From: Alphaproteobacteria bacterium
GTDB taxonomy: Bacteria > Pseudomonadota > Alphaproteobacteria > GCA-2731375
Assembly: GCA_016869175.1 (NCBI GenBank)
Contig: VGEV01000009.1
Span: 1 to 46,625, forward strand
DNA length: 46,625 bases
Direction of reading: 5' to 3'
Position numbers and translations under genes: made by a program. Positions within the stretch are counted from its first letter, which is position 1. Each line of letters starts with the position of its first letter. This document shows positions 9,870-35,115 of the stretch, one piece after another. The notes under the pieces are model-generated. The model was not told the DNA's origin and did no database searches. It saw only the letters and a program-made list of their open reading frames with translations.

Positions 9870-11138
9870 ATGAACGACGATCTCCGCATCGTGGTGGTTG
9901 GGCTTGGTTATGTCGGTCTGCCGCTGGCAGTGGTATTGGCCAAGCATTTTCCGGTACTGGGTTTCGACATTTCGGGCAACCGTATCGCCGAACTCAGTCG
10001 CGGCCATGATCGCACCGGCGAGGTCGATGCCGAACAGCTGCGCCATAGCACGCTGAACTACACCAGTGCGCCCGACTCGCTGGCCGGATACGGTCTTTAC
10101 ATCGTCACCGTGCCGACCCCGGTCGACGATCACAATCTGCCCGACCTGTCGCCGTTGCGGGCGGCCTGCGCCGCGGTCGGTCCGGCGCTGCGGCGCGGCG
10201 CCACGGTGGTGTTCGAGAGCACGGTCTATCCCGGCGTCACCGAGGAAATCTGCGGCCCGGCGCTTGAGGCGGCCTCCGGCCTGCGCTGCGGGCAGGACTT
10301 TTTCCTGGGCTACTCGCCCGAGCGCATCAACCCCGGCGACCGCGAGCATACGGTCGACCGCATCACCAAGGTGATCGCCGGCCAGACCCCGGCGGTGACC
10401 GAGCTGCTGGCCAGGGTCTATGGCAAGGTGACCACGGGCGGCGTGTTCCGGGCGCGCGACATCAAGACCGCCGAGGCCGCCAAGGTGATCGAAAACGCCC
10501 AGCGCGACGTCAACATCGCCTTCATCAACGAGGTGGCGGTGATCGCCCAGCGGCTGGGCCTGTCGGTGCATGACGTGCTGGAGGCGGCCGGCACCAAGTG
10601 GAACTTCATGAAATTCACCCCCGGCTTCGTCGGCGGCCACTGCATTGGCGTCGATCCCTACTACCTCGCCTATCGGGCGAAGGAGGTGGGGCACAACCCG
10701 GAGATCATCCTGGCCGGGCGGCGGCTGAACGACAGCATGGGCCGCTTCGTGGCCGAGCGGGTCAACGCCGCCATGGGCAAGCCTGGCCGGGTCCTGGTGC
10801 TGGGCCTGACCTTCAAGGAGGACGTGCCCGACCTGCGCAACACCAAGATCGTCGACTTGGTGGCGGAGCTGCGCCGGCTCGGCCACCAGGTGGAGGTGCA
10901 CGACGCCGTCGCCGACCCGCGCGAGGCGGCGGATTTCTACGGGATCACGCTGATCGGGCCGCTTTCCCGTCTCGCCGGCTTCGACGCGCTGATCGGCGCC
11001 GTGCCGCATGCCGAATACCGCGCGCTCGGCGAGGCCGACCTGGCGCGGCTGGTGCCGGAAGGCGGCGTCATCGCCGATGCCAAGGGCCTCTGGCGCAAGA
11101 CCCCGCAGCCCCCCGGCCGCAAGCTCTGGCAGCTCTAG
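9870..11138 (+). CDS. tviB: UDP-N-acetylhexosamine 6-dehydrogenase, TviB/WbpO type
   Basis: 422-residue NAD-dependent UDP-sugar dehydrogenase that oxidises C6 of UDP-GlcNAc or UDP-GalNAc to the uronic acid. It shows the N-terminal nucleotide-binding motif VVVGLGYVGLPLAV, the TVPTPVDDHNLPDL loop, ESTVYPGVTEEI (typical of the TviB/WbpO branch), the catalytic cysteine in GGHCIGVDPYYLAY (C258), and LGLTFKEDVPDLRNTKI in the C-terminal domain. AGGGGA sits just upstream of the ATG. It heads the polysaccharide locus and should supply the uronic acid precursor. Its last 45 bases are partly duplicated at 11820-11863, beyond the HicAB-like island. WecC-type oxidation of UDP-ManNAc is possible but less well supported. 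Confidence 0.87.
   Translation: MNDDLRIVVVGLGYVGLPLAVVLAKHFPVLGFDISGNRIAELSRGHDRTGEVDAEQLRHSTLNYTSAPDSLAGYGLYIVTVPTPVDDHNLPDLSPLRAACAAVGPALRRGATVVFESTVYPGVTEEICGPALEAASGLRCGQDFFLGYSPERINPGDREHTVDRITKVIAGQTPAVTELLARVYGKVTTGGVFRARDIKTAEAAKVIENAQRDVNIAFINEVAVIAQRLGLSVHDVLEAAGTKWNFMKFTPGFVGGHCIGVDPYYLAYRAKEVGHNPEIILAGRRLNDSMGRFVAERVNAAMGKPGRVLVLGLTFKEDVPDLRNTKIVDLVAELRRLGHQVEVHDAVADPREAADFYGITLIGPLSRLAGFDALIGAVPHAEYRALGEADLARLVPEGGVIADAKGLWRKTPQPPGRKLWQL
11092..11136 (+). repeat. Direct repeat, copy 1 (3' end of tviB)
   Basis: This is the coding end of tviB. The first 13 bases (GGCGCAAGACCCC) and the last 23 (beginning CGGCCGCAAGCTCTGG) are identical to a second copy 728 bp downstream at 11820-11863; a 9-versus-8-base middle differs. 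The two copies bracket the HicB/HicA-like gene pair. Confidence 0.85.
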
Positions 11139-11224
11139 GCGGCGGCCGGCCGGCCATGTTGTGACTTGCCGGGACGATTCGCACGGCCATATGGTGCGGA
11201 GGGCCTGCCTAGGTGGGAATGGCG

Positions 11225-11530
11225 ATGGACAGGATCGTGCGATGCTACGCGCAAGGCGGCGGCCAGGACTGGCAGGCCTATTGCCTCGACCTCGACATCG
11301 CGGTGCAGGGGAAGTCGTTCGCCGAGGTGGAAACTTCCCTGCGCGAGGCAATCCGGCTCTATGTCGAAAGTCTTGCCGACCTGCCGGAGGCCGACCGCGC
11401 CCGCCTGCTCGACCGTCCGGTGCCGTTGTGGCCGCGGCTGGCGTTTGCCTGGCGCGCCTTCGCGTCAGCGCTTCCGCGGCGCGCCGCGCCGGGCCGCCAG
11501 CATAGCATCATGCTCGCCTGTCACGCCTAG
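11225..11530 (+). CDS. HicB-like antitoxin-family protein
   Basis: 101-residue small protein with the HicB-like partial RNase-H fold pattern: DWQAYCLDLDIAVQGKSF, EVETSLREAIRLYVE and LPEADRARLLDRPVPLW. HicB-type proteins neutralise HicA RNA-cleaving toxins and often regulate their own promoter. No separate ribbon-helix-helix or HTH domain is visible. The ATG at 11225 is chosen because AGGTGG at 11211-11216 has 8-base spacing; GTG at 11213 or ATG at 11219 are in frame. Unusually, the putative toxin gene is convergent and overlaps by four bases, rather than lying upstream in the same operon. Confidence 0.65.
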   Translation: MDRIVRCYAQGGGQDWQAYCLDLDIAVQGKSFAEVETSLREAIRLYVESLADLPEADRARLLDRPVPLWPRLAFAWRAFASALPRRAAPGRQHSIMLACHA

Positions 11531-11819: not shown

Positions 11820-11863
11820 GGCGCAAGACCCCCGGCCGCCCGGCCGCAAGCTCTGGCAGCTCT
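11820..11863 (+). repeat. Direct repeat, copy 2 (truncated tviB 3' end)
   Basis: 44 bases matching the tviB terminus at 11092-11136. It ends exactly where the first TGAACG half-site of the downstream operator region begins (11863). It encodes nothing on its own; the short plus-strand frame through it ends in the same residues as TviB only because of the duplication. Confidence 0.85.
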
Positions 11864-11884
11864 GAACGTCGCGCCCTCGACCGC

Positions 11885-11929
11885 TTGACGTTCAGGCGGT
11901 GAACGGGCTATGCGTTCACGGGCTGAACG
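11885..11929 (+). promoter_or_regulatory. Promoter with two 17-bp palindromic operators for the EPS operon
   Basis: TTGACG (11885-11890) and TATGCG (11909-11914) are spaced by 18 bp and resemble -35/-10 elements. Two palindromes overlay them: CGTTCAGGCGGTGAACG (11889-11905) and CGTTCACGGGCTGAACG (11913-11929), each CGTTCA-N5-TGAACG with perfect 6-bp arms, centres 24 bp apart. A further TGAACG half-site lies at 11863-11868. One palindrome covers the edge of -35 and the other the end of -10, the arrangement expected for a repressor. The MarR-type regulator encoded 13 bp downstream is the obvious candidate to bind. Confidence 0.65.
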
Positions 11930-11941
11930 GGGCGGCGCGCA

Positions 11942-12604
11942 GTGGTTTCGCTGGAGTTCCAGGGCAAGGCCGGGACGGCCAAGCCGGCGGATGCGGAGGC
12001 TGACGGCCAGCTGACCCTTGACCTGCTGGACGCGGTCGGCAAGAACGCCAGCGCCTCACAGCGCAGTCTCGCCAAGGAACTGAACGTCGCGCTCGGCCTG
12101 ACCAATGCCTATCTCAAGCGTTGCATCAATCGCGGCCTGGTCAAGGTCGCGAAAACCCCGCCCAATCGCTACGCCTATTACCTGACGCCGCAAGGCTTCG
12201 CCGAGAAGAGCCGGCTGACGGCGCGCTATCTCGCCAACTCCTTCCGCTTCTATCGCCGGGCCCGCAACCAGTGCGACGCGCTGCTGGGCCAGGCGAGCGA
12301 GGCCGGCTGGCGGCGAGTGGCGCTGGCGGGCCAGGGCGAACTGGCCGAGGTGGCGTTGCTCTGCGCCCTGCAATTCGAACTCGAGGTACCGGGCATCATC
12401 GATGCCACGGCGACCGCCAATCGGTTCCGCCACGTGCCACTGGTGCGCGACCTGGAGAGCCTGCCGGGCATCGATGCCGTGCTGCTAACCGACCTCAAGA
12501 TGCCGCAAGCAAGCTACGAGCGGCTGGCCGGCCGGCTGGGTCCGGCCCGCGTGCTGACCCCGCCCTTGCTGAAGGTGCAGCTCGGCTTGGGGGATGGGCC
12601 GTGA
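11942..12604 (+). CDS. MarR-type EPS-associated regulator with extra C-terminal Rossmann-like domain
   Basis: 220-residue protein. Residues about 20-110 match the winged-helix family found at exopolysaccharide loci (MarR-family EPS-associated regulators): LTLDLLDAVGKNASASQRSL, NVALGLTNAYLKRCINRGLV, YAYYLTPQGFAEKSRLTARY. The C-terminal half (about 115-215) is an added alpha/beta domain beginning WRRVALAGQGELAEVALLCA, which resembles the nucleotide-binding start of sugar-related Rossmann folds; its ligand is unknown. The usual family members are little more than the N-terminal half. Start is GTG at 11942, right behind the palindromic promoter. The stop overlaps the start of the next gene (GTGA), indicating translational coupling. 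Confidence 0.82.
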   Translation: MVSLEFQGKAGTAKPADAEADGQLTLDLLDAVGKNASASQRSLAKELNVALGLTNAYLKRCINRGLVKVAKTPPNRYAYYLTPQGFAEKSRLTARYLANSFRFYRRARNQCDALLGQASEAGWRRVALAGQGELAEVALLCALQFELEVPGIIDATATANRFRHVPLVRDLESLPGIDAVLLTDLKMPQASYERLAGRLGPARVLTPPLLKVQLGLGDGP

Positions 12605-13104
12605 GCGCCTGGTACTGCGTCTACACTCAGCCGCGCCAGGAATTGTGGGCGCGCGGCAATCTGTGGGAACGCGGGTTCGAGGTCTATCTGCCGCTGATCA
12701 AGCGGCCGCGCCGCCATGCCCGGCGCACCGACTGGGTGGCGGCGCCGCTGTTCCCGAGTTACCTGTTCGCCCGCGCCGACCTGGCGGCGGGCGACCGCCG
12801 GCGCATCGCCAGCGCGCCCGGCGTGCGCAACCTGGTGGCGTTCGGGCCGTCGCCGGCGGAAGTGCCGGCCGCCGTCATCGCCGATATCCGCGGCCGCGAG
12901 GATGCCAGCGGCTATGTCGCGCTCGATCCCACGGCCGGCCTGAAGCCTGGCGACCCGGTGCGCCTCGACTGGGCGGGGCTGACCGATTGCGTCGGCCTGT
13001 TCGCCGGCGTCGCCGACAAGCAGCGCGTCGTCGTGCTGCTGCGGCTCTTGGGCCGCGAACTGCGCGTGCAGGCGCCAGCCGCCGCGCTGGCCCGCGCCGG
13101 ATAG
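12601..13104 (+). CDS. NusG/RfaH-like transcription antitermination protein
   Basis: 167-residue NusG-family specialised elongation factor. The NGN domain starts WYCVYTQPRQELWARGNLWE and includes GFEVYLPLIKRPRRHAR and PLFPSYLFAR; a KOW domain follows (GDPVRLDWAGLTDCVGLF through about residue 160). RfaH-type factors load on RNA polymerase and suppress termination in long polysaccharide operons. It is the second gene of such an operon (about 16 kb follow), overlapping the regulator by four bases with a GTG start. No ops element (GGCGGTAGC-like) was found in the leader, so recruitment may differ from enterobacterial RfaH. Confidence 0.85.
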   Translation: MSAWYCVYTQPRQELWARGNLWERGFEVYLPLIKRPRRHARRTDWVAAPLFPSYLFARADLAAGDRRRIASAPGVRNLVAFGPSPAEVPAAVIADIRGREDASGYVALDPTAGLKPGDPVRLDWAGLTDCVGLFAGVADKQRVVVLLRLLGRELRVQAPAAALARAG

Positions 13105-13110
13105 GCCCCG

Positions 13111-14574
13111 ATGCTGCAGCCGCTGGCCCAGCTTGGCCGCTCCACCCTGATCTACGGGCTCGGCCTTGCCGCCGGGCGGCTGCTGTCGCTGCTGACGTTG
13201 CCGATCTTCACCCGCTATCTGTCGGCGACGGAGTTCGGCCTGATCGCCTTGCTGCTGCTGGCGGGCATGGTCGCGCGGCAGGCCTGCGGGCTCGGCATCG
13301 GCGGGGCGGCGGGCATTGTCTATTTCCGCGCCGCCGATGCGAGCGGGCGCGCCGCCGCCCTGTGGACGGCGGCAATGCTGACGGGGCTCGGCGCGCTGGC
13401 GCTGCTGGGGCTGGCCTGGCTTGCCGCCCCGGCGCTGGGCGGCGTGTTGCTGGACGGGGCCGAGCGCGCCGGACTGATCCGCTGGCACGCACTCGGCCTC
13501 GCGGCCGGCATGCTGGCGGAGATGCTGCTGTTGCGGCTGCAATTCGAAAGCCGGCCCGCGGCTTTCGTGTTGCTCTCGGTCGGACAGGGCGCCACCGGCC
13601 TCGCGCTCAGCTATCTGCTAGTGGTCGAGGCCGGTTTCGGCATCGCCGGCTGGATCGTTGGCAATTGCGGCGGGGCGCTGCTCGGCCTGCTGGCGGTGCT
13701 GCTGGTGGTGCTTGCCGGTTGCCGGCCGGCGTTCGACCGGCACCTCGTGCGCCCGCTGCTGACCAGCGGCCTGCCCCTGGTGCCGGGCGGATTGCTGACG
13801 TTACTGCTGTTCCAGGGGGCCACCTACGCGGTCGCGCGCGAGGCCGGACTGGCGGTCGCCGGGCAGTTCTCCATCGCCCTGCAATTCGGCGCCGGCATGA
13901 TGTTGCTGACGGGCGCCTTCGGCAACGCCTGGTACCCCTACTTCCAGTCCCATGCCGGACGACCGGAGGAGGCGGCCCGGCAGTTTCCACGCTTGGTCAG
14001 CGCCTATGCTTTCGGCTTCGGGCTGGCGGCACTCGCCTTCTTCGCGGTTGCCCGGCCGCTGGTCGCGCTGCTGACCGAGGCCGGTTTCCATGCCGCCTAT
14101 CGCGGCGTCGGATGGTCGGCGCTGGCCTATTACCTGCTTGCGCTGTGGAGCATGCTGCTGCCGGCGCTCTATTTCGCGCGGGAAACCTGGCTGGTCCTGC
14201 CCGTGCAGGCCGCGGCCGTGGTCTATGCCGCCGGCGGGCATGTCTTGCTGCTGCCCGCCCTGGGCCTGGAGGGGGCTGCGATGGCGGTGGCGCTGGGCGC
14301 GGGCGGCATGGTGGCAACGCAGTTGCTGGCCAACCGGCTGCGCGGCTATCGCTTGCCGATGACCGAGCCCGGCCGGCTGCTGGCCGCCTTGTCGGCGCTG
14401 GCGGTGGCCGTGCTGACGCAACGTGCCATCGACGAAAGCCTTGCCTTGCCGCTCGCGCTGCCCGCTTCGGCCGCTTTGCTGGCCGCCTACGCGGCGGTCG
14501 GCTGGCGCGGTCTGGGGCGGGAACGCCTGGCGCTGACGACGCGGCTGCGTGCCCGCGGGCAGCTGCGGGCATGA
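13111..14574 (+). CDS. Wzx-type polysaccharide flippase / oligosaccharide transporter
   Basis: 487-residue polytopic membrane protein with about 14 hydrophobic segments across its length. The opening LGRSTLIYGLGLAAGRLLSL followed by LPIFTRYLSATEFGL is typical of the polysaccharide-biosynthesis branch of the MOP flippase superfamily, which turns lipid-linked repeat units to the periplasmic face. It starts 6 bases after the RfaH-like gene and its stop overlaps the following methyltransferase start (ATGA). A second, truncated flippase gene lies at the right edge of the window. Confidence 0.85.
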   Translation: MLQPLAQLGRSTLIYGLGLAAGRLLSLLTLPIFTRYLSATEFGLIALLLLAGMVARQACGLGIGGAAGIVYFRAADASGRAAALWTAAMLTGLGALALLGLAWLAAPALGGVLLDGAERAGLIRWHALGLAAGMLAEMLLLRLQFESRPAAFVLLSVGQGATGLALSYLLVVEAGFGIAGWIVGNCGGALLGLLAVLLVVLAGCRPAFDRHLVRPLLTSGLPLVPGGLLTLLLFQGATYAVAREAGLAVAGQFSIALQFGAGMMLLTGAFGNAWYPYFQSHAGRPEEAARQFPRLVSAYAFGFGLAALAFFAVARPLVALLTEAGFHAAYRGVGWSALAYYLLALWSMLLPALYFARETWLVLPVQAAAVVYAAGGHVLLLPALGLEGAAMAVALGAGGMVATQLLANRLRGYRLPMTEPGRLLAALSALAVAVLTQRAIDESLALPLALPASAALLAAYAAVGWRGLGRERLALTTRLRARGQLRA

Positions 14575-15383
14575 ACACGATCTATGCCCGCCCGCCGCTG
14601 CGCGTCGAGAACGGCGTGCCGATCTTCGCCGCCCCCGACGCCTATACCGACAACTACGAACGGATCGCCAGCGACCATCTGGCCGCGATCGGCCAAGGCA
14701 TCGCCAATCCGTTCATCGAAGACGCGATGTGGCGCGAGCTGGAAGATTCCACCGTCGCCCTGATCGAGCGCCACGCGCCCGCCGGCGGCCGCCTGCTCGA
14801 CATCGGCTGCGGTACCGGCCGGCTGCTGGATCGCCTGCCCCGGTTCGAGCGGTTCGGCGTCGACATCAGCCTTGCCTATCTCGGCCGCTTGCGCGAACGG
14901 CAGATCGAGGCCGCGCTTGCCCGGGTCGAGGCCCTGCCGCATGCCGATGCCAGTTTCGATGTGGTGAGCGCCACCGACGTGCTGGAACATGTGATCGACC
15001 TGCATGCCGCCTGCCTGGAAATGACGCGGGTGCTGAAGCCGGAGGGGCTGTGCTGCGTGCGGGTGCCCTACCGCGAGGATCTGGCGCCCTATCTGGCGGA
15101 GGGCTACCCCTACCGCTTCGCGCACCTGCGCAGCTTCGACGAACATGCGCTGAAGCTGCTGTTCTGCCGGGTGCTGGACTTCGATCATCTGGCCGCGGAG
15201 TTCGTGCATCCGCTCGATGCCGGCTATTGCCGGCTGCCGCTGCCGCGCGGCAGGGGGGCGCTGACGCGGGCCCTGGCATGGCTGGAACGGCTGACGCCGG
15301 CGATGGTGGCGGGCTGGCGGCGCCGGCTCTATCGCCCGGTCGTCATCAGCATGGCCTTCCGCAAACGGGCGGCGCATGACTGA
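14571..15383 (+). CDS. SAM-dependent methyltransferase (class I)
   Basis: 270-residue Rossmann-fold methyltransferase. The SAM-binding motif RLLDIGCGTGRLLDRLP lies near residue 74, the acidic second strand FGVDISLAYLGRL follows, and FDVVSATDVLEHVIDLHAAC with MTRVLKPEGLCCVRVPY completes motifs II-IV of the Methyltransf_11/25 type. The substrate is unknown; within this operon a sugar residue or glycan is likely. The start overlaps the flippase stop and the end overlaps the next methyltransferase by 8 bases. Confidence 0.83.
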   Translation: MNTIYARPPLRVENGVPIFAAPDAYTDNYERIASDHLAAIGQGIANPFIEDAMWRELEDSTVALIERHAPAGGRLLDIGCGTGRLLDRLPRFERFGVDISLAYLGRLRERQIEAALARVEALPHADASFDVVSATDVLEHVIDLHAACLEMTRVLKPEGLCCVRVPYREDLAPYLAEGYPYRFAHLRSFDEHALKLLFCRVLDFDHLAAEFVHPLDAGYCRLPLPRGRGALTRALAWLERLTPAMVAGWRRRLYRPVVISMAFRKRAAHD

Positions 15384-16194
15384 GGCAACGCTTGGCGGCG
15401 ACAACGCGCGCTTCTGGGACGAGCTTTGCGGTTCCACGCTGGCGCGCACGCTCGGCATCAGCGATCACTCGCCGGCTTCGCTGCAGCGCTTCGACGACTG
15501 GTATTTCCGCTTCTATCCCTATCTCGCGCGCCATGTGCCGTTTCCCAACGTGGCGGACAAGCGGGTGCTGGAAGTGGGGCTGGGCTATGGCAGCGTCGGC
15601 GAACGGCTGGCGCGCGCCGGCGCCGATTATCACGGCCTCGACATCGCCGCCGGGCCGGTCGCCATGCTCAACCTGCGGCTCGCGCGCCTCGGCCTGCGAG
15701 CAAGCGCACAGCAGGGCAGCGTGCTCGACTGCCCGTTTCCCGACGCCAGTTTCGATCACGTCGTGGCGATCGGCTGCTACCACCATACCGGCGACATCGG
15801 CCGGGCGCTGGACGAGACCTGGCGGATCCTGAAGCCGGGCGGCGAGGCCTGGATCATGGTCTACCATGCCTATTCCTATCGCCGCTGGCTGCGCTTTCCG
15901 GCCACGACCTTCGCGCAATGGCGGTGGGAATATCTGGGCGGAGCGGCGCCGGGCAAGGCAAGTGCCGCCGAACGCCGGGCCTACGATGCCGACAGCCAAG
16001 GCAACGCGGCGCCGGAAACGGCCTTCCTGTCACGCCGGCAGCTCAAGCAGCTCTGCGCGCGCTTTCGCGGCTTCGAGGCGCGACTGGAGAATGCCAGCCT
16101 GGGCCATCTCGACCAGCTGGTGCCGCGCGCCCTGCAACTGGCGACGCTGGGCCGCCTGGCCGGCCTCGACGTCTACCTGCACCTGACGAAATGA
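15376..16194 (+). CDS. SAM-dependent methyltransferase (class I), second copy type
   Basis: 272 residues. SAM-binding motif VLEVGLGYGSVGERLA near residue 64, FDHVVAIGCYHHTGDIGRAL and the IV-type strand WRILKPGGEAWIMVYH are clear. The central part (YHAYSYRRWLRFPATTF onward) and the late SRRQLKQLCARFRGFE region are like methyltransferases found in glycan gene clusters. It is not a close duplicate of the preceding gene. Overlaps both neighbours (8 bases before, ATGA after). Probably acts on a nucleotide-linked or lipid-linked sugar; target unknown. Confidence 0.82.
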   Translation: MTEATLGGDNARFWDELCGSTLARTLGISDHSPASLQRFDDWYFRFYPYLARHVPFPNVADKRVLEVGLGYGSVGERLARAGADYHGLDIAAGPVAMLNLRLARLGLRASAQQGSVLDCPFPDASFDHVVAIGCYHHTGDIGRALDETWRILKPGGEAWIMVYHAYSYRRWLRFPATTFAQWRWEYLGGAAPGKASAAERRAYDADSQGNAAPETAFLSRRQLKQLCARFRGFEARLENASLGHLDQLVPRALQLATLGRLAGLDVYLHLTK

Positions 16195-17540
16195 CCATGC
16201 ACGGCCAGGTCCCCGGCACGCGCCCGCTCAATGTGCTGCTGCTGCACGACCGCCAGCCTCGCCTCGCCGGCACGGTCGACCAGCATGTCGCGGCACTGGC
16301 CAATCGGTCGCGGCACAAGGTGGTCGGGCTCAAGATGCTGGGCGATCTGCCGGCCGGCCTCGATCTGGCGGCGTTCGATGCCATCGTGCTGCATTACACG
16401 CTGGTCGCCTGCCACGACGCCTATGTCTCGCCGGCGACGCGCGCGCGGCTTGCCGCCGCGCCGGGCGTGAAGGCGGCCTTCATCCAGGATGAATATCGCT
16501 TCGTCGACCGCACCGTGGCGGCGTTGTGTGCGATCGGGCTGGACCTGCTGTTCACCTGCGTGCCTGAGCCGGAGATCGAGAAGGTCTACCCGGCGGAGCG
16601 GCTGCCGGGCGTCGTCAAGCGCAACGTCTTGACCGGTTACGTCGACGAAAGCCTGTTGGGGCGGCCCGTCCTTGCGCTTCGGGACCGGCCGGTCGACGTC
16701 GGCTACCGCGCCCGCAAGGTGCCGGCCTGGCTCGGCGGCTTCGGCCAGGAGAAGTGGGCGATCGGCGTGCGCTTCGGCCAGGACGCGCCAGCCCATGGCC
16801 TGAAGGTCGATCTCGCCTATCGCGAGGAGGAGCGGCTCTACGGCCAGGCCTGGATTGATTTCATGACCGGCTGCAAGGCGACGCTGGGAACCGAATCGGG
16901 CGCTTCGGTTTTCGACTTCAGCGGCGAGGTGCAGCGCCAGGTGGAGGCGGCCTTGCTGGCCGACCCCGACCTGCCGTTCGAGACCCTGCAGGAACGCTAT
17001 TTCAAGCATCTGGAAGGCCTGATCCGGCTCAACCAGATCTCCCCGCGCTGCTTCGAGGCGGCGGCGCTGAAGACGCTGATGATCCTTTACGAGGGCGAAT
17101 ATTCCGGCCGGTTGACGGCCTGGCGCCACTATCTGCCGCTCAACAAGGACCATTCCAACATGGCCGAGATCGCAGCCGCCCTGCGCGACCTGCCGCGCTG
17201 CCAGGCGATGGTCGACTGCGCGTACGAGGAAGTGGCGCTGGCGCCGGCCAATTCGTTCCGCCAGCACGTGGCGGAGGTCGATGCCTGGTTGGCCGAGGCC
17301 TGGCACGACAAGCGCCCGTCGCCGGCCCCGGGGCTGGCCGATGGCGCCCTGCATCGGCTGCAGCGGCCGAACTTCCGCCAGCGTCGACGCAACCTGCAGC
17401 GCTGGCTCTACGAACACGCCAACCTGCTGCTGTTCCGCCACTTGCTGGGCGCCATGCCGGCGGCCCGGCGCGACCGGCTGCAACTCGTCCTGCACCGGGG
17501 CCTGAAGAGCCTGCTGACCGCGGTGCGCCCGCGTGTCTAG
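16191..17540 (+). CDS. Glycosyltransferase-like protein (GT1/GT4-type C-terminal domain)
   Basis: 449-residue soluble protein. The first 120 residues look like a GT-B N-terminal half (LNVLLLHDRQPRLAGTVDQH, FDAIVLHYTLVACHD, VKAAFIQDEYRFVDRTVAAL). The middle has VGYRARKVPAWLGGFGQEKW and ATLGTESGASVFDFSGEVQ. The region ISPRCFEAAALKTLMILYEG and HYLPLNKDHSNMAEIAAALR resembles the C-terminal glycosyl-transferase 1 domain with its sugar-nucleotide acidic motif. It has no transmembrane segment. It immediately precedes an AsnB-type gene, and the same order recurs at 23405-26541. The acceptor and donor cannot be assigned. Confidence 0.6.
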   Translation: MTMHGQVPGTRPLNVLLLHDRQPRLAGTVDQHVAALANRSRHKVVGLKMLGDLPAGLDLAAFDAIVLHYTLVACHDAYVSPATRARLAAAPGVKAAFIQDEYRFVDRTVAALCAIGLDLLFTCVPEPEIEKVYPAERLPGVVKRNVLTGYVDESLLGRPVLALRDRPVDVGYRARKVPAWLGGFGQEKWAIGVRFGQDAPAHGLKVDLAYREEERLYGQAWIDFMTGCKATLGTESGASVFDFSGEVQRQVEAALLADPDLPFETLQERYFKHLEGLIRLNQISPRCFEAAALKTLMILYEGEYSGRLTAWRHYLPLNKDHSNMAEIAAALRDLPRCQAMVDCAYEEVALAPANSFRQHVAEVDAWLAEAWHDKRPSPAPGLADGALHRLQRPNFRQRRRNLQRWLYEHANLLLFRHLLGAMPAARRDRLQLVLHRGLKSLLTAVRPRV

Positions 17541-17600
17541 GGAAGTACTCGACAGGACCGGAGCGAGCGCCTATAGCGCAAAAGCAATGGATGCGAAGTC

Positions 17601-19514
17601 ATGTGCGGCATAGCGGGCGCGGTCAGCCTGTCGGGGCGGCCGATCGAAGTGCTGGGACGGCGGCTGGCCGTGATGGCCGGGCTGATCCGCCACCGCGGGC
17701 CCGATGGCGAGGGTTTCTGGCGAGCGGCCGACGACTGCGTCGGCTTCGCCCACCGGCGGCTTGCCATCATCGACCTGTCGCCGACCGGCGCGCAGCCGAT
17801 GCTGGCGCCCAACGCTACCGCCATCACCTATAACGGCGAGGTCTACAATTATCGCGAACTGCGCGAGGAGCTGGCGCCGCATTGGCGCTTCCGTTCGAAT
17901 TCCGACACCGAATGCGTGCTGGCGGCCTACGAGCGGGACGACACCGAATGCCTCGCGCGGCTTCGCGGCATGTTCGCCTTCGCGCTGTGGGACGAGAAGC
18001 GCAAGCGCCTGTTCTGCGCGCGCGACCGTTTCGGCATCAAGCCGTTCTACTACGCCGTCGTCGGCGATGTGCTGTTGTTCGCGTCGGAGGCCAAGGCCCT
18101 GCTGCCCTGGCTGCCGGAGATCGCCACCGATCCGCAGGCGCTGGCGGAATATCTCACCTTCCAATACGGCATCGGCGAGCACACGCTGTTCAAGGGCGTG
18201 CGGCAATTGCTGCCCGGCCACGCGCTGACGTTGCAGGACGGCCAGCTTCGGGTCTGGCGCTACTGGGATGTCAACTACGAGATCGACTTCGACCACAGCC
18301 CCAACTATTACCGCCGGCGCACGGCCGAACTGGTCGGGCAGTCGCTCGGTCTGCACTTGCGCAGCGACGTGCCGGTCGGCGCCTATCTCTCGGGCGGCAT
18401 CGATTCCTCGTTGGTCGCCATCCTGGCGACGCGCGCGCAAGGCAACGCCAGCCAGTCCTTTCACGGCAAGTTCACCTGCCATCCAGGCTACGACGAAAGC
18501 GTCTACGCGCGCACAGTGGCGCAAGGCTGCGGCAGCCGGCTGCACGAAATCGACATCGGCCCGGAGGATTTCCGCGACAATATCGAGCGTGTCGTCTACC
18601 ACCTCGACTATCCCGTGGCCGGCCCCGGCTCGTTCCCGCAATTCATGGTCTCCCGCCTGGCCGCCGCCCACGTCAAGGTGGTGCTGGGCGGGCAGGGCGG
18701 CGACGAGGTGTTCGGCGGCTATGCGCGCTACCTGCTCGCCTATTTCGAGCAGTGCATCAAGGCGGCGGTTGACGGCACCTACCGCAACGGCAACTACGTG
18801 GTGACGATCGAATCGATCGTGCCCAACCTCACCTTGTTGCAGGAATACAAGCCGCTGATGGCGGAATTCTGGCGGCAAGGCCTGTTCGGCCCGGCGGAGG
18901 AACGCTATCTGCGCCTGATCGACCGCTCGACCGACCTGGCCGACGAGGTGGACTGGCAGGCGCTCGACCGCCAGCGCGTGGCTGCGGACTTCAAGGCGAT
19001 CTTCAACAACCGCGCCAATGTCCGCAAGGAAGCCTATTTCGACATGATGACGCATTTCGACTTCAAGTGCCTGCTGCCGGCCTTGCTGCATGTCGAGGAT
19101 CGCATGAGCATGGCGCACGGCCTGGAAGCGCGCGTGCCGCTTCTGGACCATCCCTTGATCGAGTTCGCCGCCACCGTGCCGGCCGACATCAAGTTCGCGG
19201 GCGGTGCCATGAAGCACCTGATCAAGACCACCTTCGCCGCCGATTTGCCGCCCTCGCTGCTGCAACGGCGCGACAAGATGGGCTTCCCCGTGCCGCTCAA
19301 GGAATGGTTCCAGGGCGAGTTGGCCGATCTCGTCGCCGACCTGTTCGCCAGCGACAGCGCGCGCGCGCGGCCGTTCCTCAATGCGCCGGCGGTGTTGCGC
19401 AATTTCGCCGAGGCCGGGCGGTTCTCGCGCAAGACCTGGGGGCTGCTGTGCCTCGAACTCTGGCATCGGCGGTTCCACGACCGCGCGCCCGAATGGCGCG
19501 CCATGGCCGCCTGA
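17601..19514 (+). CDS. asnB: Asparagine synthase-type amidotransferase (glutamine-hydrolysing)
   Basis: 637-residue two-domain enzyme. The N-terminal Ntn glutaminase starts MCGIAGAVSL with Cys2 as nucleophile, plus LIRHRGPDGEG, AHRRLAIIDLS and ITYNGEVYNYRELREEL. The C-terminal ATP-pyrophosphatase has the PP-loop SGGIDSS (264-270), LGGQGGDEVFGGYARYL, and the late EDRMSMAHGLEARVPLLDH. In glycan clusters such enzymes commonly amidate uronic acids rather than make free asparagine (WbpS-like), and the tviB gene here makes such a uronate likely. It follows the glycosyltransferase-like gene by 60 bp. Function as a true asparagine synthetase cannot be excluded. Confidence 0.9.
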   Translation: MCGIAGAVSLSGRPIEVLGRRLAVMAGLIRHRGPDGEGFWRAADDCVGFAHRRLAIIDLSPTGAQPMLAPNATAITYNGEVYNYRELREELAPHWRFRSNSDTECVLAAYERDDTECLARLRGMFAFALWDEKRKRLFCARDRFGIKPFYYAVVGDVLLFASEAKALLPWLPEIATDPQALAEYLTFQYGIGEHTLFKGVRQLLPGHALTLQDGQLRVWRYWDVNYEIDFDHSPNYYRRRTAELVGQSLGLHLRSDVPVGAYLSGGIDSSLVAILATRAQGNASQSFHGKFTCHPGYDESVYARTVAQGCGSRLHEIDIGPEDFRDNIERVVYHLDYPVAGPGSFPQFMVSRLAAAHVKVVLGGQGGDEVFGGYARYLLAYFEQCIKAAVDGTYRNGNYVVTIESIVPNLTLLQEYKPLMAEFWRQGLFGPAEERYLRLIDRSTDLADEVDWQALDRQRVAADFKAIFNNRANVRKEAYFDMMTHFDFKCLLPALLHVEDRMSMAHGLEARVPLLDHPLIEFAATVPADIKFAGGAMKHLIKTTFAADLPPSLLQRRDKMGFPVPLKEWFQGELADLVADLFASDSARARPFLNAPAVLRNFAEAGRFSRKTWGLLCLELWHRRFHDRAPEWRAMAA

Positions 19515-19536
19515 GGACTTCGTTCATGGAGAGGCA

Positions 19537-20472
19537 ATGAAAGTCTTCATCACCGGCGGCGCCGGCTTCATCGGCTCCCACCTGGCCGACCGACTGCTGG
19601 CGCAAGGCGACACCGTGGCCGTGCTCGACAATTACGAGACCGGCCGGCGCGACAATCTGGCGGCCCACCCGCGGCTCAGCGTGCACGAAGGCTCGGTCGC
19701 CGATGCCGGTCTGGTGACGGGCCTGATCGGCGATAGCAAGCCCGATCTCGTGGTGCATGCCGCCGCCAGCTACAAGGACCCGGAGAACTGGCTGCAGGAC
19801 GGCCTCGTCAACACCGTCGGTACCGCCAACGTCGCCAAGGCGGCCAAGGCGGCGGGCTGCCGGCGCCTGATCTATTTCCAGACCGCGCTCTGCTATGGCC
19901 TGAAACCCTTGGAACAGCCGATCACGCTGGCGCATCCCATTCTGCCGGGCGGCTCGTCCTATGCCATCAGCAAGACGGCGGGCGAGTATTACATCCAGCT
20001 TGCCGGCCTCGATTTCGTCACCTTCCGTCTCGCCAACGCCTATGGCCCGCGCAACCTGTCCGGCCCGCTGCCGACCTTCTATCAGCGGCTGACCGAGGGC
20101 AAGCCGTGCTTCGTCATGGATACCAGGCGCGACTTCATCTTCATCGACGATCTGGTCGATTGCGTGCTGGGAGCGGCGGCGGGCAAGGGACACGGCGCCT
20201 ATCACATATCCTCCGGCTCGGACTACGCCATCAGGCAATTGTTCGAGGAAACGGTGAAGGCGCTGCGCATCAACCTGGAACGCCCGGTCGAGGTCCGGCC
20301 GCGCCAGCCCGACGACGTTGCCACCATCCTGCTCGACCCCAGCCGCACCGAGGCCGAGTTCGGCTGGCGGGTGAAGACGCCGCTGGGCCAGGGCGTGGCG
20401 CGGGCGATCGACTGGTACAAGAGTCACGGCGTCAGCCAGACGTTCACGCACTTGAACCTGCCGAAGGGTTGA
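19537..20472 (+). CDS. NAD-dependent epimerase/dehydratase (extended SDR)
   Basis: 311-residue extended short-chain dehydrogenase acting on nucleotide sugars. The NAD motif MKVFITGGAGFIGSH is at the N-terminus, the catalytic YxxxK is YAISK (Tyr142), and FRLANAYGPRNLSGP and DFIFIDDLVDCVLGA are family landmarks. The upstream catalytic Ser/Thr position reads FQTALCYG, so a threonine or cysteine replaces the more usual serine. GAGAGG precedes the ATG at 19537. Whether it is a 4-epimerase, 4,6-dehydratase or decarboxylase cannot be told from sequence alone. Confidence 0.83.
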   Translation: MKVFITGGAGFIGSHLADRLLAQGDTVAVLDNYETGRRDNLAAHPRLSVHEGSVADAGLVTGLIGDSKPDLVVHAAASYKDPENWLQDGLVNTVGTANVAKAAKAAGCRRLIYFQTALCYGLKPLEQPITLAHPILPGGSSYAISKTAGEYYIQLAGLDFVTFRLANAYGPRNLSGPLPTFYQRLTEGKPCFVMDTRRDFIFIDDLVDCVLGAAAGKGHGAYHISSGSDYAIRQLFEETVKALRINLERPVEVRPRQPDDVATILLDPSRTEAEFGWRVKTPLGQGVARAIDWYKSHGVSQTFTHLNLPKG

Positions 20473-20482
20473 GGCGCGGACG

Positions 20483-21325
20483 ATGGCACGGCGGGTCAGC
20501 AACGCCGAGGTGCGCGACTTCTGGGAAGCGAACCCGGTGGCGGCGGCGGCGATCGAAGCGGCGCCCGGCAGCGCCGGCTTCTTCGCCGCCTTCGACCGGC
20601 TGCGCGAGGCGGAGGAGTGCGAACCTTGTGCTTTTTCCAACCTGATCCACGGCTATGACCGGGCGGCTGGCTTGGCGGTGTTGGATGTCGGTTGCGGCAA
20701 CGGCTATGTGCTGGAGCGCTACGCGCGCCATGGCGCGTGGGCGGCCGGCATCGATCTGACCGAGGCGGCCTTGCGGCTGTCGCGCCGGCGCTTCGAGCTG
20801 GCGGGCCTGCGCGGCGAATTCCGCCTGACCGACGGCTCGCGCGTGCCGTTCGCCGATGCCAGCTTCGACATCGCTTGCGCCATGGGCGTGCTGCACCATA
20901 TCGAGGATCCGCTGCCGATGCTCCGCGAGATGCACCGCGTGCTGAAGCCGGAGGGTCGGCTCATCCTCATGCTCTATCATCGCCACAGTTGGAAGGCGCG
21001 GGTGCTGATCCGCTTGCGCCGGCTGCTCGATCCGCGCTTCCGCGGCCTGAGCCAGCAGGAGGCGCTCAACCGCAACGACGGCGCCGGCTGCCCGCTGGCG
21101 CGGGTCTATTCCCGGGCCGAGGCGACGGCCGTGCTGGCGGCGGCCGGCTTCGTCGAGCCGCGCTTCACCGTCAACCAGCTCGGCTGGCGTCAGCTCCTCT
21201 TGGTGCCGCCGCTCGCCCGCCTGCTGGCGCCGCTGCTGCCGAGCCCCGATCGCAGCTTCCTTGCCCGGCGCTGGGGCTGGGCGCTCTACGTCCACGCCCG
21301 GCGCGGCGCTGACCACAAGGGCTGA
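20483..21325 (+). CDS. SAM-dependent methyltransferase (class I), third in operon
   Basis: 280 residues. The SAM motif AVLDVGCGNGYVLERYA is near residue 65, then AAGIDLTEAALRLSRRR, FDIACAMGVLHHIEDPLPML and MHRVLKPEGRLILMLYHRHS. This is the Methyltransf_11 pattern. The C-terminal 80 residues (CPLARVYSRAEATAVLAAAG, followed by a hydrophobic LVPPLARLLAPLLP) may contact membrane or lipid-linked substrate. It sits between two epimerase genes (10-base gap before, 4 after). Substrate unknown. Confidence 0.83.
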   Translation: MARRVSNAEVRDFWEANPVAAAAIEAAPGSAGFFAAFDRLREAEECEPCAFSNLIHGYDRAAGLAVLDVGCGNGYVLERYARHGAWAAGIDLTEAALRLSRRRFELAGLRGEFRLTDGSRVPFADASFDIACAMGVLHHIEDPLPMLREMHRVLKPEGRLILMLYHRHSWKARVLIRLRRLLDPRFRGLSQQEALNRNDGAGCPLARVYSRAEATAVLAAAGFVEPRFTVNQLGWRQLLLVPPLARLLAPLLPSPDRSFLARRWGWALYVHARRGADHKG

Positions 21326-21329
21326 TGCC

Positions 21330-22373
21330 ATGCTGCAGGGCGCGACGGTGGTGGTGGTGGGCGCGGCCGGCTTCGTCGGTGCCAACTTGTGTCATCGCCT
21401 GCTGGCGTTGGGCGTGCGGCGCCTGGTGGCGGTCGACAACTTGCTGTCGGCCGAGGCCGACAATCTGTCGGACGATCCGCGGCTCAGCTTCCTGCACGGC
21501 TCGATCACCGAGGACCGCCTGCTGGCGCGACTGCCGCCGGCCGACTGCGTGTTCCATCTCGCGACCTACCACGGCAACCAGAGCTCCATGGCCGATCCGC
21601 TGGCCGACCACGACAACAACCTGCTGCCGACGCTGAAACTGTGCGAGCACCTGAAGGTCGCGCCGGGCCTCCACAAGCTGGTCTATGCCTCGGCCGGCTG
21701 CACGGTGGCGGAGAAGACCTTCGCGGCGGCGGACGCAACACGCGAGGACGATCCCGTTTCGCTCTATCTCGACAGCCCCTACCAGATTTCCAAGATCGTC
21801 GGCGAGTTCTATGGCAACTACTACTTCATGCGGCACAAGCTGCCGTTCGTGAAGGCGCGTTTCCAGAACGTCTATGGTCCGCGCGAGGTGCTGGGCGCCG
21901 GCCGCTGGCGCGGCACGCCGGCCAGCGTCTGGCGCAACGTGACGCCGACCTTCATCTGGAAGGCGCTGGCCGGCGAGGCGCTGCCGGTGGAGAACGGTGG
22001 CATCGCCACGCGCGACTTCATCTATGTCGACGATCTGGTGGACGGTCTGGTTGCCTGCGCCGAGCGGGGCGAGCCGGGCGAGGTCTACAATCTCGCCTCC
22101 GGCGTCGAGACGACGATCCTGCAATTGGCCGAGACGGTGAACCGGCTGACCGGCAACAAGACGCCCATCCGTCTCGCACCGGCGCGCAATTGGGACCGCT
22201 CCGGCAAGCGCTATGGCGATCCGGCCAAGGCGGCCGAGCGGCTCGGTTTCCGCGCCGGCACGCCGCTGGAGGACGGGCTCGCCCGCACCATCGAGTGGAC
22301 CCGTGCCAATGCCGCGTGGATCGGCCACTGCATCGCCCGGCACCGGCGCTTCCTGGCCGAAGCCGAGCGATGA
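21330..22373 (+). CDS. NAD-dependent nucleotide-sugar epimerase/dehydratase (extended SDR)
   Basis: 347-residue extended SDR. It starts TVVVVGAAGFVGANLCHRLL, with VFHLATYHGNQSSM, KLVYASAGCTVAEK carrying the catalytic serine region, and the active-site YQISK (Tyr151). FQNVYGPREVLGAG and DFIYVDDLVDGLVACAERGE complete the family pattern. The ATG at 21330 starts at the fold; the frame is open earlier but overlaps the methyltransferase. The stop overlaps the UDP-GlcNAc 2-epimerase start (ATGA). Probably a 4-epimerase or dehydratase for a UDP-sugar used in the repeat unit. Confidence 0.83.
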   Translation: MLQGATVVVVGAAGFVGANLCHRLLALGVRRLVAVDNLLSAEADNLSDDPRLSFLHGSITEDRLLARLPPADCVFHLATYHGNQSSMADPLADHDNNLLPTLKLCEHLKVAPGLHKLVYASAGCTVAEKTFAAADATREDDPVSLYLDSPYQISKIVGEFYGNYYFMRHKLPFVKARFQNVYGPREVLGAGRWRGTPASVWRNVTPTFIWKALAGEALPVENGGIATRDFIYVDDLVDGLVACAERGEPGEVYNLASGVETTILQLAETVNRLTGNKTPIRLAPARNWDRSGKRYGDPAKAAERLGFRAGTPLEDGLARTIEWTRANAAWIGHCIARHRRFLAEAER

Positions 22374-23401
22374 GCGTGCTCTCGGTCGTCGGCGCCCGGC
22401 CGCAATTCGTCAAGGCCGCCGCCGTCAGCCGGGCACTGCGGACGGCGGGCCTGCCGGAAACGATGCTGCATACCGGGCAGCATTACGATGCCGACATGTC
22501 GCAAGTGTTCTTCGATGAACTCGACATTCCGGCCCCGCGGCACAATCTCGGCGTGCACGGCGGCCGCCACGGCGAGATGACGGGGCGCATGCTGCTGGCC
22601 CTCGAGCCGATCCTGTTGGCGGAAAAGCCCGACTGGGTGCTGGTCTATGGCGACACCAATTCGACGCTCGCGGCCGCGTTGGCGGCGGCCAAGCTCAATC
22701 TGCGGGTCGCGCATGTGGAAGCGGGCCTGCGCTCGTTCAACCGGCGCATGCCGGAGGAGCTCAACCGGCTGCTGACCGATCATCTGAGCGCCCTGCTGTT
22801 CTGTCCGACGCGGGCCGCCGTCGCCAACCTGGCGAGGGAAGGCATCAAGGCCGGCGTGCATCACGTCGGCGACGTGATGTACGACGCCACGCTGCATGCC
22901 AAGGCAGCCGCCGGGCGACGATCCGACATCCTGCTTCGACTGGGCCTCGTCCCCGGCCGCTACGACGTGGCGACCCTGCACCGGGCGGAGAACACCGACG
23001 ATGCCCAGCGCCTGAAGCGGCTCACCGATTGGCTGAAGGAACGGGCGGCGGTGCGTCCGGTCGTGCTGCCGCTGCATCCGCGCACGCGGGCGGCAGTGAC
23101 GGCGGCCGGGCTTGATCTCGCCGGCCTTGCCGTCATTCCGCCCGCCTCCTACCTCGACATGGCGGCTTTGGTGGCCGATGCCGCCGCCGTCTACACCGAT
23201 TCCGGCGGGCTGCAGAAAGAGGCCTATTTCCACCGCAAGCCCTGCGTCACCTTGCGCGAGGAGACGGAGTGGGTGGAAACCGTCGCGGCTGGCTGGAACC
23301 GGCTGTGGCAGGGGCCGGGTTTCGCACCGCGAAGCGAGATATCGGACTATGGCGACGGCCAAGCGGCGCAGCGCATCGTCGCCATCCTGGCGGGCGGCTA
23401 G
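22370..23401 (+). CDS. wecB: UDP-N-acetylglucosamine 2-epimerase (non-hydrolysing)
   Basis: 343-residue GT-B-fold epimerase interconverting UDP-GlcNAc and UDP-ManNAc, or a related 2-epimerisation as in WbpI. It starts VLSVVGARPQFVKAAAVSRA. It then has LHTGQHYDADMSQVFF, WVLVYGDTNSTLAAALAAAK, HVEAGLRSFNRRMPEELNR, TLHRAENTDD, and the C-terminal YTDSGGLQKEAYFHRKPCVT, all family signatures. It supplies a ManNAc-type precursor to the operon. Starts on the ATGA overlap with the preceding SDR gene and ends 3 bases before the next gene. Confidence 0.92.
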   Translation: MSVLSVVGARPQFVKAAAVSRALRTAGLPETMLHTGQHYDADMSQVFFDELDIPAPRHNLGVHGGRHGEMTGRMLLALEPILLAEKPDWVLVYGDTNSTLAAALAAAKLNLRVAHVEAGLRSFNRRMPEELNRLLTDHLSALLFCPTRAAVANLAREGIKAGVHHVGDVMYDATLHAKAAAGRRSDILLRLGLVPGRYDVATLHRAENTDDAQRLKRLTDWLKERAAVRPVVLPLHPRTRAAVTAAGLDLAGLAVIPPASYLDMAALVADAAAVYTDSGGLQKEAYFHRKPCVTLREETEWVETVAAGWNRLWQGPGFAPRSEISDYGDGQAAQRIVAILAGG

Positions 23402-23404
23402 CGC

Positions 23405-24613
23405 ATGCGGGAATCGCGCATCAAGACCCTGGTACTGCACGCGCACTACACCACGCGGCTGTCCTATTACGACGATTGGCTGGATGCCTTTCGCGCTGCG
23501 CCCGGATTCGCGGTCACCGCGCTCAACATCTGCCAGCGGGACATCGGCGCGGCGCTCAAGCCGGCGCTGCGGGAGGCCGAACTGACGGTGCTGCTGCATT
23601 CGACCAACGGCGACACCACGATCTACCTGGAACCGCTGGCCCCCCTGTTGGCCGCGCGCAAGGGCAAACTGCTGAGCTTCGTCGGCAACGAGTTCAACGC
23701 GGTCGGCTCGCCCATCGCCGCCAAGCGGCAAGTATTGGCCGTCGTCCGGCCGGACATCATCGCCACGCAATTGCTGAAGGAAGCGGGCGCCTATCTGTTC
23801 GGCGACCTGGCGGAACGCATCATCGCCGTGCCACACGCCCTCAATCCCGGGGCCTTTCGCGCCGAGCGGTCGGCCGCGGAGCGCCATATCGACCTCGGCG
23901 TGCGCGCGGCCCGCTATCTGCCGCATCTGGGCGACGAGGACCGCAACCGGGTGCACGCGCTGTTCGCCGCCAACCGTTTCCAGCCACCGCTCACGGTCGA
24001 TATCGGCGATCAGCGCCTGACGCGGAGCGACTGGGCGCGCTTCCTCAACGACTGTCGAGGGACGGTCAGTTGCGAGGCCGGCTCCTGGTATCTCGAACGC
24101 GACGACGCCACGGTCGAGGCAATCCGCCAATGGACGCGCCGGCGGATGGGCGGCCGGCTGGTGATCGCCAACGATTCGAACCTGCGCCGGCTCGGGCACA
24201 AACTGCCCTGGGGCCTGCGCGCGGCCGCCCGGCGCCTGCTCAGCGCGGGCCCGTTGCGGCATGAGGTGACCGTCAACGAGGAACTGCCGTTCGCGGAGGT
24301 GCATGCCCGCTTCTTCGCCGGCCGCCCGCGCCCGCCCGTCTACGGCAAGTGCATCTCCTCGCGCCATTTCGACGCCATCGGCACTAAGACCTGCCAGATC
24401 ATGCTGCGCGGCCGCTATAACGACATCCTCGAGGCCGACCGCGACTATATCGCGTTGGCGCCCGACTTCGCGAACCTGGAAGACGCGGTGGCGCGCTTCC
24501 GCGACGCACGCTATCGCCAGGCGATGGTGGATGCCGCCTATGAGCGCGCGCTGGCCGCGCATACCTACCGTCACCGCATCGACCGCGTCGCCGACGCGGT
24601 GGCGGCGCTCTAG
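23405..24613 (+). CDS. Glycosyltransferase-like protein (GT1-type C-terminal domain)
   Basis: 402 residues without membrane segments. The N-terminal half (LVLHAHYTTRLSYYDDWLDA, TVLLHSTNGDTTIYLE) and the middle (FAANRFQPPLTVDIGDQRLT) look GT-B-like. The end has GTKTCQIMLRGRYNDILEAD, DYIALAPDFANLEDAVARF and YRQAMVDAAYERALAAHTYR, which parallels the C-terminal GT1 domain of the 16191-17540 product (GTES, SGRL and LPLNKDHSN region). As there, an AsnB-type gene follows directly. Family assignment is from pattern only, and donor and acceptor are unknown. Confidence 0.6.
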   Translation: MRESRIKTLVLHAHYTTRLSYYDDWLDAFRAAPGFAVTALNICQRDIGAALKPALREAELTVLLHSTNGDTTIYLEPLAPLLAARKGKLLSFVGNEFNAVGSPIAAKRQVLAVVRPDIIATQLLKEAGAYLFGDLAERIIAVPHALNPGAFRAERSAAERHIDLGVRAARYLPHLGDEDRNRVHALFAANRFQPPLTVDIGDQRLTRSDWARFLNDCRGTVSCEAGSWYLERDDATVEAIRQWTRRRMGGRLVIANDSNLRRLGHKLPWGLRAAARRLLSAGPLRHEVTVNEELPFAEVHARFFAGRPRPPVYGKCISSRHFDAIGTKTCQIMLRGRYNDILEADRDYIALAPDFANLEDAVARFRDARYRQAMVDAAYERALAAHTYRHRIDRVADAVAAL

Positions 24614-24615
24614 CG

Positions 24616-35017: not shown

Positions 35018-35115
35018 TTCTCCCTTCGGCGGCCCCGCTACCCGCCTTGTCGCCAAGGCGGGCCGGAGGCTTTGCGTCCCGCCGTTACCGGCGGTTTGCC
35101 TGTTCGTGGCACGCT
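35018..35115 (-). ncRNA. Cyclic di-GMP-I (GEMM-I) riboswitch upstream of the membrane microprotein
   Basis: On the minus strand the order GGCAAACC, a P2 stem CCGCCG-GUAA-CGGCGG with a GNRA tetraloop, GGGACGCAAAGCCUCCGGCC, a P3 stem CCCGCCUUG-GCGA-CAAGGCGGG, and GGGUAGCGGGG matches the c-di-GMP-I riboswitch class point for point. It resembles the Vibrio cholerae Vc2 aptamer, including its GGCAAACC and GGGACGCAAAGCC blocks. The closing P1 helix was not drawn with confidence. The ribosome site AAGGGAG begins right after the aptamer 3' edge, which suggests control of translation initiation rather than a terminator. It lies in the 132 bases between the nucleotidyltransferase gene and the 49-codon gene. 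Confidence 0.92.

Follow-up and report, generated by a model that had tools for sequence, protein, structure and literature searches.

Upstream of a long run of polysaccharide genes on an alphaproteobacterial contig, two exact inverted repeats overlap a promoter and directly precede the gene of a winged-helix protein. The question that this locus raises is which protein reads the repeats and which step of gene expression is controlled through them. In the 46,625 nucleotides that were analysed as a whole (the window), the letters and the comparison with related loci make it quite probable that the palindromes are the operators of the winged-helix/Rossmann regulator encoded downstream, which would act as an autorepressor at initiation; RfaH-like control of elongation may follow. 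The locus comprises the following features:

11863–11868, unstranded: TGAACG half-site, present, out of register with the upstream sites of relatives (−24 to −28)
11885–11890, plus strand: −35 hexamer TTGACG, read from the sequence, columns 99–100% conserved in 84 aligned relatives
11889–11905, unstranded: operator 1, CGTTCAGGCGGTGAACG, in the −35/−10 spacer, exact, core with at most two mismatches in 88 of 105 loci
11909–11914, plus strand: −10 hexamer TATGCG, read from the sequence, TA at 92–93% in relatives (TAnnnT)
11913–11929, unstranded: operator 2, CGTTCACGGGCTGAACG, at the −10 end and putative start, exact, downstream second site in 59 of 88 core loci
11942–12604, plus strand: regulator, 220 aa, GTG start, winged helix (about 15–82), long helix (83–120), Rossmann domain (about 125–210)
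12601–13104, plus strand: gene 2, RfaH/UpxY-like NusG paralogue, 167 aa, GTG start (PF02357, TIGR01955, PDB RfaH)
13111–28879, plus strand: polysaccharide gene run, closely packed, which suggests a single transcript

The palindromes (CGTTCA-N5-TGAACG) start 24 bp apart, and the second ends 12 bp before the GTG of the regulator at 11942. They are arranged around a promoter with a −35 hexamer that matches five of six consensus positions, an 18-bp spacer and a −10 hexamer without the final T of the relatives' TAnnnT. Operator 1 shares 2 bp with the −35 hexamer and otherwise occupies the spacer, and operator 2 shares the final 2 bp of the −10 hexamer and then spans the likely start site. The sequence-only reading of this DNA had described twin exact palindromes 24 bp apart at a TTGACG/TATGCG promoter, which is borne out by the sequence and by the background counts. 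Its geometry of one site at −35 and one at −10 has to be corrected to spacer plus start because of the positions just given.

At the GC content of the window (69.3%), chance would produce 0.001 exact sites and 5e-10 close pairs. With up to two mismatches allowed, the window contains five matches against 1.31 expected, a number that is reached by none of 100 shuffles, and TGAACG and CGTTCA together occur only 25 times. The 3.97-Mb genome harbors three copies of GTTCA-N5-TGAAC, which are the window pair and a copy within a coding ORF (C88:5584) that is ruled out as a regulatory target by this position. The close pair of exact sites is unique genome-wide. The composite TTGACGTTCA-N5-TGAAC is likewise present as a single copy in the genome, and the runner-up matches carry two mismatches.

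A further half-site upstream had also been claimed; TGAACG does exist at 11863–11868, but it is out of register with the sites of relatives. Since the upstream site of the relatives sits 24–28 bp before operator 1, the half-site is probably a chance occurrence, and it is ruled out as a third operator. The letters around it (CTGAACGTCGCGC, 11862–11874) recur at 12080–12092, in the region that codes for the helix-turn-helix of the regulator.

The relatives come from two sets, namely the 31 genomes (of 96) that gave a match and the best 80 of 186 loci. Removal of three window-locus copies, and of loci whose last 150 bp upstream were identical, left 105 distinct regions, the window included. In the 300 bp upstream of the regulator, TTCA-N5-TGAA is found at 95 of these 105 loci and is missing in ten, with a total of 159 sites against about 0.5 expected (background: 692,549 bp of sequence from these loci). 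When the TTCA repeats are given control spacers of N2–N4 or N6–N10, the 105 upstream regions yield zero or one site; of the 255 alternative four-base half-sites, the best reaches six. A motif search upstream of orthologues is what the sequence-only reading had set as its refutation test; with the motif present at this frequency and fixed in the −35/−10 spacer, the operator reading of the regulator promoter gains comparative support. Over 450 bp, an exact twin 22–28 bp apart occurs in 52 of the 105 regions, sites without such a twin in 44 and no site in nine. The most distant relatives (L029, L030, L032, and L033) are among those in which the site was not found over this length.

The site holds a constant register within the promoter. 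The core TTGAC-N-TTCA-N5-TGAA is recognized with at most two mismatches in 88 of the 105 regions (76 exact, eight with one mismatch, four with two) and is missing in 17. The 84 loci with at most one mismatch align as TTGACGTTCA-N5-TGAAC-N4-TAnnnT, in which the T and A reach 92–93% and the final T 68%. This alignment corresponds to a −35 TTGACG, an 18-bp spacer and a −10 TAnnnT with operator 1 occupying the spacer; judged from it, operator 1 is clearly locked in the −35/−10 spacer of a sigma-70-like promoter. In six of the 17 core-less regions (L023, L056, L060, L070, L086, and L110), the site directly follows a −10-like hexamer, ATAGTG or ATAGCG. A second site with at most one mismatch lies downstream in 53 of the 88 core loci, upstream in 15, on both sides in six and is absent in 14. 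The spacing is 22–25 bp downstream (23 most frequent) and 24–28 bp upstream. The resulting range of 22–28 bp spans roughly half a turn of the helix, so that tight cooperativity on a single face is not general. The window groups with its 11 nearest relatives in one supported set of a quick tree, and all of these loci are of the downstream type.

The regulator is a two-domain protein in which the DNA-binding half is assigned more easily by sequence than the C-terminal one. Pfam identifies HTH_24 (5e-9), and MarR_2 scores 19.1 bits, below its threshold of 27. The MarR_EPS model TIGR04176 matches residues 24–114 (E 2.3e-17) with 63 bits, below the curated cut-off of 88. In the AlphaFold2 model, built from 96 sequences (pLDDT 89.8), a winged helix is followed by a long helix and a C-terminal domain; structures of the MarR and PadR types match the N-terminal half equally well (VIA Z 12–13). 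The C-terminal domain was modelled alone because the winged helix filled the VIA list of the whole model and the Foldseek rows were not credited; the top Foldseek rows, mainly O-methyltransferases, aligned with an rmsd of 11–14. Modelled separately (pLDDT 96), the domain is Rossmann-like, with fold matches to succinyl-CoA synthetase alpha (Z 10.9), Rex (10.8), 3nkl (10.1), and WbaP (9.7), where values within 1 of each other count as tied and families missing from the lists are not counted as excluded. The structure 3nkl is a UDP-QuiNAc dehydrogenase that shares 25% identity over 92 residues with the C-terminal domain. Pfam PglD_N matches weakly in five of 86 members of the regulator family, and a search of solved structures with the regulator sequence gave weak matches only. 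The models suggest that the regulator likely binds a nucleotide-type ligand. The earlier designation as a MarR-type regulator has to be amended: the protein is no plain MarR, as it carries a C-terminal Rossmann domain and its MarR_EPS score stays below the cut-off.

Two known families offer partial models for such a protein. The regulator shares with Rex repressors an N-terminal winged helix and a C-terminal Rossmann domain (3wg9, Z 10.8, rmsd 2.7, 96 aligned). Unlike Rex, its DNA-binding half matches MarR and PadR types, and its C-terminal domain is matched about equally by CoA-binding and NDP-sugar enzymes. A Rex-type N-terminal DNA-binding domain was not found by Pfam at E values up to 0.01, which returned only HTH_24 and the weak MarR_2 match. 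MarR autorepressors are winged-helix proteins with a palindrome of 15–17 bp over the −35/−10/start region and a gene beside the operator. The regulator resembles them in its winged helix, in the palindrome that overlaps the promoter, where its binding is predicted, and in the gene that adjoins the operator; it differs by the added Rossmann domain.

Across genomes, the operator tracks the protein. The regulator is encoded by 92 of 385 sampled genomes of the class; the exact composite site is present in 38, all of them belonging to the 92 (hypergeometric 2e-27). None of the 293 genomes without the regulator contains it, and the reversed pattern occurs in one of 385. There are 44 composite sites in total; by a tally of coordinates, 37 of them precede the regulator by no more than about 200 bp, and seven lie elsewhere. 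One of these seven (G003:C214) lies at a contig end and duplicates main-locus sequence.

The same holds when the winged helix occurs in other protein contexts. Stand-alone MarR_EPS loci above the TIGR04176 cut-off carry GTTCA-N5-TGAAC upstream in 11 of 14 cases; those without it are L159, L165, and L167, the last of which is cut by a contig edge. At seven loci that encode proteins of about 700 aa (L168–L173 and L175), GTTCA-N4-TGAAC is found upstream in every case and the N5 site in none. Three of these seven proteins were analysed with Pfam and join a winged helix to ATP sulfurylase and APS kinase in one chain, possibly a self-regulating enzyme for PAPS supply. As the half-site follows the winged helix through varied domain partners, this is the best evidence that the regulator reads the half-site. 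On sequence grounds, GTTCA-N5-TGAAC clearly accompanies the winged-helix/Rossmann protein family. The likeness to MarR_EPS accordingly extends from the matching winged-helix region to the operator of the stand-alone members. It ends at the 220 aa of the regulator with its added Rossmann domain, compared to 105 positions in the model, and at its loci, which usually have two operators, one of them in the promoter spacer.

Repression by the regulator has to be weighed against other readings of the same sites. An origin by chance in GC-rich DNA has a negligible probability. Perfect palindromes can arise in a 4-Mb genome, and the third exact copy is probably one of them, but with 5e-10 close pairs expected in the window and the site conserved at 95 of 105 loci, the background counts and the orthologue comparison rule this origin out. 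A function in RNA, where the palindromes would form small hairpins as an attenuator or stability element, is very improbable. Site 2 would be transcribed, given the position of the promoter, but operator 1 is the best conserved and, between −35 and −10, is not transcribed from this promoter; in addition, the arms are invariant and do not covary. A different DNA-binding protein (e.g., LexA or a CRP/FNR type) might use the sites, with the regulator gene merely as a target, which is an improbable arrangement. The half-sites of GTTC-N7-GAAC are common to the alphaproteobacterial LexA box, but this box is a direct repeat, GTTC-N7-GTTC, and is ruled out by the inverted repeats at both sites. The three copies in the genome, the lack of a composite in all 293 sampled genomes that do not encode the regulator and the persistence of the site, with a change of spacer, across domain fusions also speak against another protein.

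Finally, the regulator may bind the sites and activate, either by MerR-like bending or untwisting of the spacer or as a ligand-switched repressor and activator, which is unlikely. Operator 1 lies exactly within the spacer, and 18 bp is slightly long. MerR promoters, however, have spacers of 19–20 bp, compared to which 18 bp is near optimal, and the −35 hexamer reaches 5/6 of the consensus. The non-self targets of relatives have near-consensus −10s such as TATAAT, and in most loci the start site is covered by site 2, an arrangement suited to repression. Repression is preferred because the promoter is near consensus, the spacer measures 18 bp and the second site is often found over the start; a near-optimal promoter with an occupied spacer fits this preference.

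The gene that follows the regulator was not characterized in the sequence-only reading and turns out to encode an RfaH-like NusG paralogue. Its start overlaps the stop of the regulator by 4 bp. Gene 2 matches the NusG N-terminal domain PF02357 (6.9e-16, 59 bits) above the cut-off of 22.2, the RfaH model TIGR01955 with 95.9 bits below the cut-off of 144.5, the UpxY model with 65.3 bits, again below the cut-off, and PDB RfaH at 2e-11. A NusG-like gene is found directly after the regulator in 87 of 105 loci, and two of the 18 misses are without contig room. A 929-aa ORF (12594–15383) that was considered as gene 2 is a read-through frame; the genes in this region are 12601–13104, 13111–14574, and 14571–15383. 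The gene run encodes a Wzx-like flippase, methyltransferases, two AsnB-type amidotransferases, sugar epimerases, a UDP-GlcNAc 2-epimerase, glycosyltransferases, and an O-antigen ligase/Wzy-like protein. The extent of about 17 kb that had been given for the operon agrees with the plus-strand genes from 11942 to 28879, with the close packing pointing to one transcript. A UDP-glucose/GDP-mannose dehydrogenase gene further upstream (9870–11138, plus strand) has the same orientation but is not part of the proposed operon.

The core of the E. coli ops element is GGCGGTAGCGTG, and a search modelled on it yielded CACCCGGACTGCGGTAGCRTG in relatives. A copy of the CACCCG type is located 45–103 bp past the stop codon of the NusG-like gene in 31 of 87 loci, and an ops-like copy within 1.7 kb of the regulator start in 35 of 105. 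A hairpin precedes GCGGTAGC in all five copies that were folded (z −1.4 to −4.0) out of 33 aligned. The letters of the stem covary between some loci by eye, without a count, and a simple check for a five-base stem is passed by 16 of 34 copies. Examples of hairpin plus element are L092:6176–6241, L083:6192–6257, and L151 (G140:C463:6649–6666). Seven relatives' loci scanned whole against Rfam matched no family. At L019, L035, L040, and L043, the ops-like element lies on the opposite strand, where it perhaps serves a divergent operon. The exact ops-like element occurs in 33 of 385 genomes, 27 of which are among the 92 with the regulator (2e-13), and the reversed pattern occurs in two of 385.

Operator and ops-like element meet at the remote sites. 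Five of the six non-self composite sites precede genes for an ABC transporter, two Polysacc_synt_2 proteins, an RmlD-type protein, and an NTP transferase; no gene is assigned to the remaining one. GCGGTAGC is found 71–131 bp behind the start of the composite site at five of these six, all but the ABC transporter (chance about 4e-10), so that operator and ops-like element stand in tandem at the remote targets of relatives. The window is different. It contains no ops-like element (best PWM score −2.7), and its genome no credible copy, with ten matches at three mismatches compared to 29 for the reversed pattern. With the element absent from this genome, the elongation step here would rest on gene 2 alone. 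The GGTAG in the −10 region was considered as an ops element and rejected because TAnnnT sits 18 bp past TTGACG and the remote −10s are TATAAT-like.

In the proposed mechanism, RNA polymerase would be blocked by a regulator dimer on operator 1, and another dimer, bound over the start on operator 2, would reinforce the block. Repression by the regulator would thereby extend from its own gene to that of the co-translated RfaH-like factor and to the polysaccharide run of about 17 kb. A nucleotide-type ligand (NDP-sugar, NAD(H), or CoA-like) in the Rossmann domain might relieve repression, as the fold resemblance hints, and the RfaH-like factor may then carry the polymerase along the long operon. 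A wider reading is offered tentatively. This would be an alphaproteobacterial surface-polysaccharide regulon with two gates, of a kind not described before, in which the operator could gate initiation and a leader element of hairpin plus GCGGTAGC could gate elongation. A co-translated pair of sensor-repressor and RfaH-like factor might read both, in its own operon as well as at distant genes for sugar nucleotides and export, with the second element lost, moved or unrecognisable in the window genome. If this were true, the Rossmann domain would feed back sugar-nucleotide or redox state.

Gene 2 resembles RfaH and UpxY in matching both models and PDB RfaH and in heading a long polysaccharide operon, and the GCGGTAGC of relatives resembles the E. 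coli ops core. It differs in its scores below both cut-offs and its co-translation with an initiation regulator, and the ops-like element of relatives differs in its preceding hairpin and its absence from the window genome. The part of PMC7593976 drawn on here associates the RfaH cluster CL4 with an HTH regulator and names no operator or ops element for it. According to the same part, E. coli RfaH is the only one whose recruitment is known in detail. In view of the CL4 association, the pairing of regulator and RfaH-like factor may already be on record (PMC7593976, same part). In the parts of PMC10599003 and PMC8007912 that concern it here, the MarR_EPS family appears as annotation only. A search that covered open-access PMC full text returned no publication that deals with the operator or with any tested MarR_EPS regulator; one bacterial match to the operator letters, in the matching part of PMC3999280, is a primer.

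MarR_EPS-type regulators have been database names and mere list entries in the open-access literature searched. The comparison supplies them with a concrete operator, its register in the promoter and a rule open to testing. This rule extends to stand-alone members and, with a shifted spacer, to an enzyme fusion. In addition, an initiation regulator becomes linked to an RfaH-like factor, with a candidate ops-like element outside enterobacteria, where the recruitment of such factors is described as open in the cited part of PMC7593976. Operon and remote targets become predictable from sequence, and cultured relatives include Paramagnetospirillum, Bradyrhizobium, and Afipia.

Two neighboring features complete the window. 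A HicA toxin gene (11213–11530, plus strand; PF07927, 6.6e-16) lies just upstream of the operator region and is convergent with a 105-aa ORF (11763–11527, minus strand) that is HicB-like by eye, has no Pfam match and stands in an unusual order. The sole Rfam match in the window is a c-di-GMP-I riboswitch (RF01051, 62.4 bits) at 35110–35025 on the minus strand.
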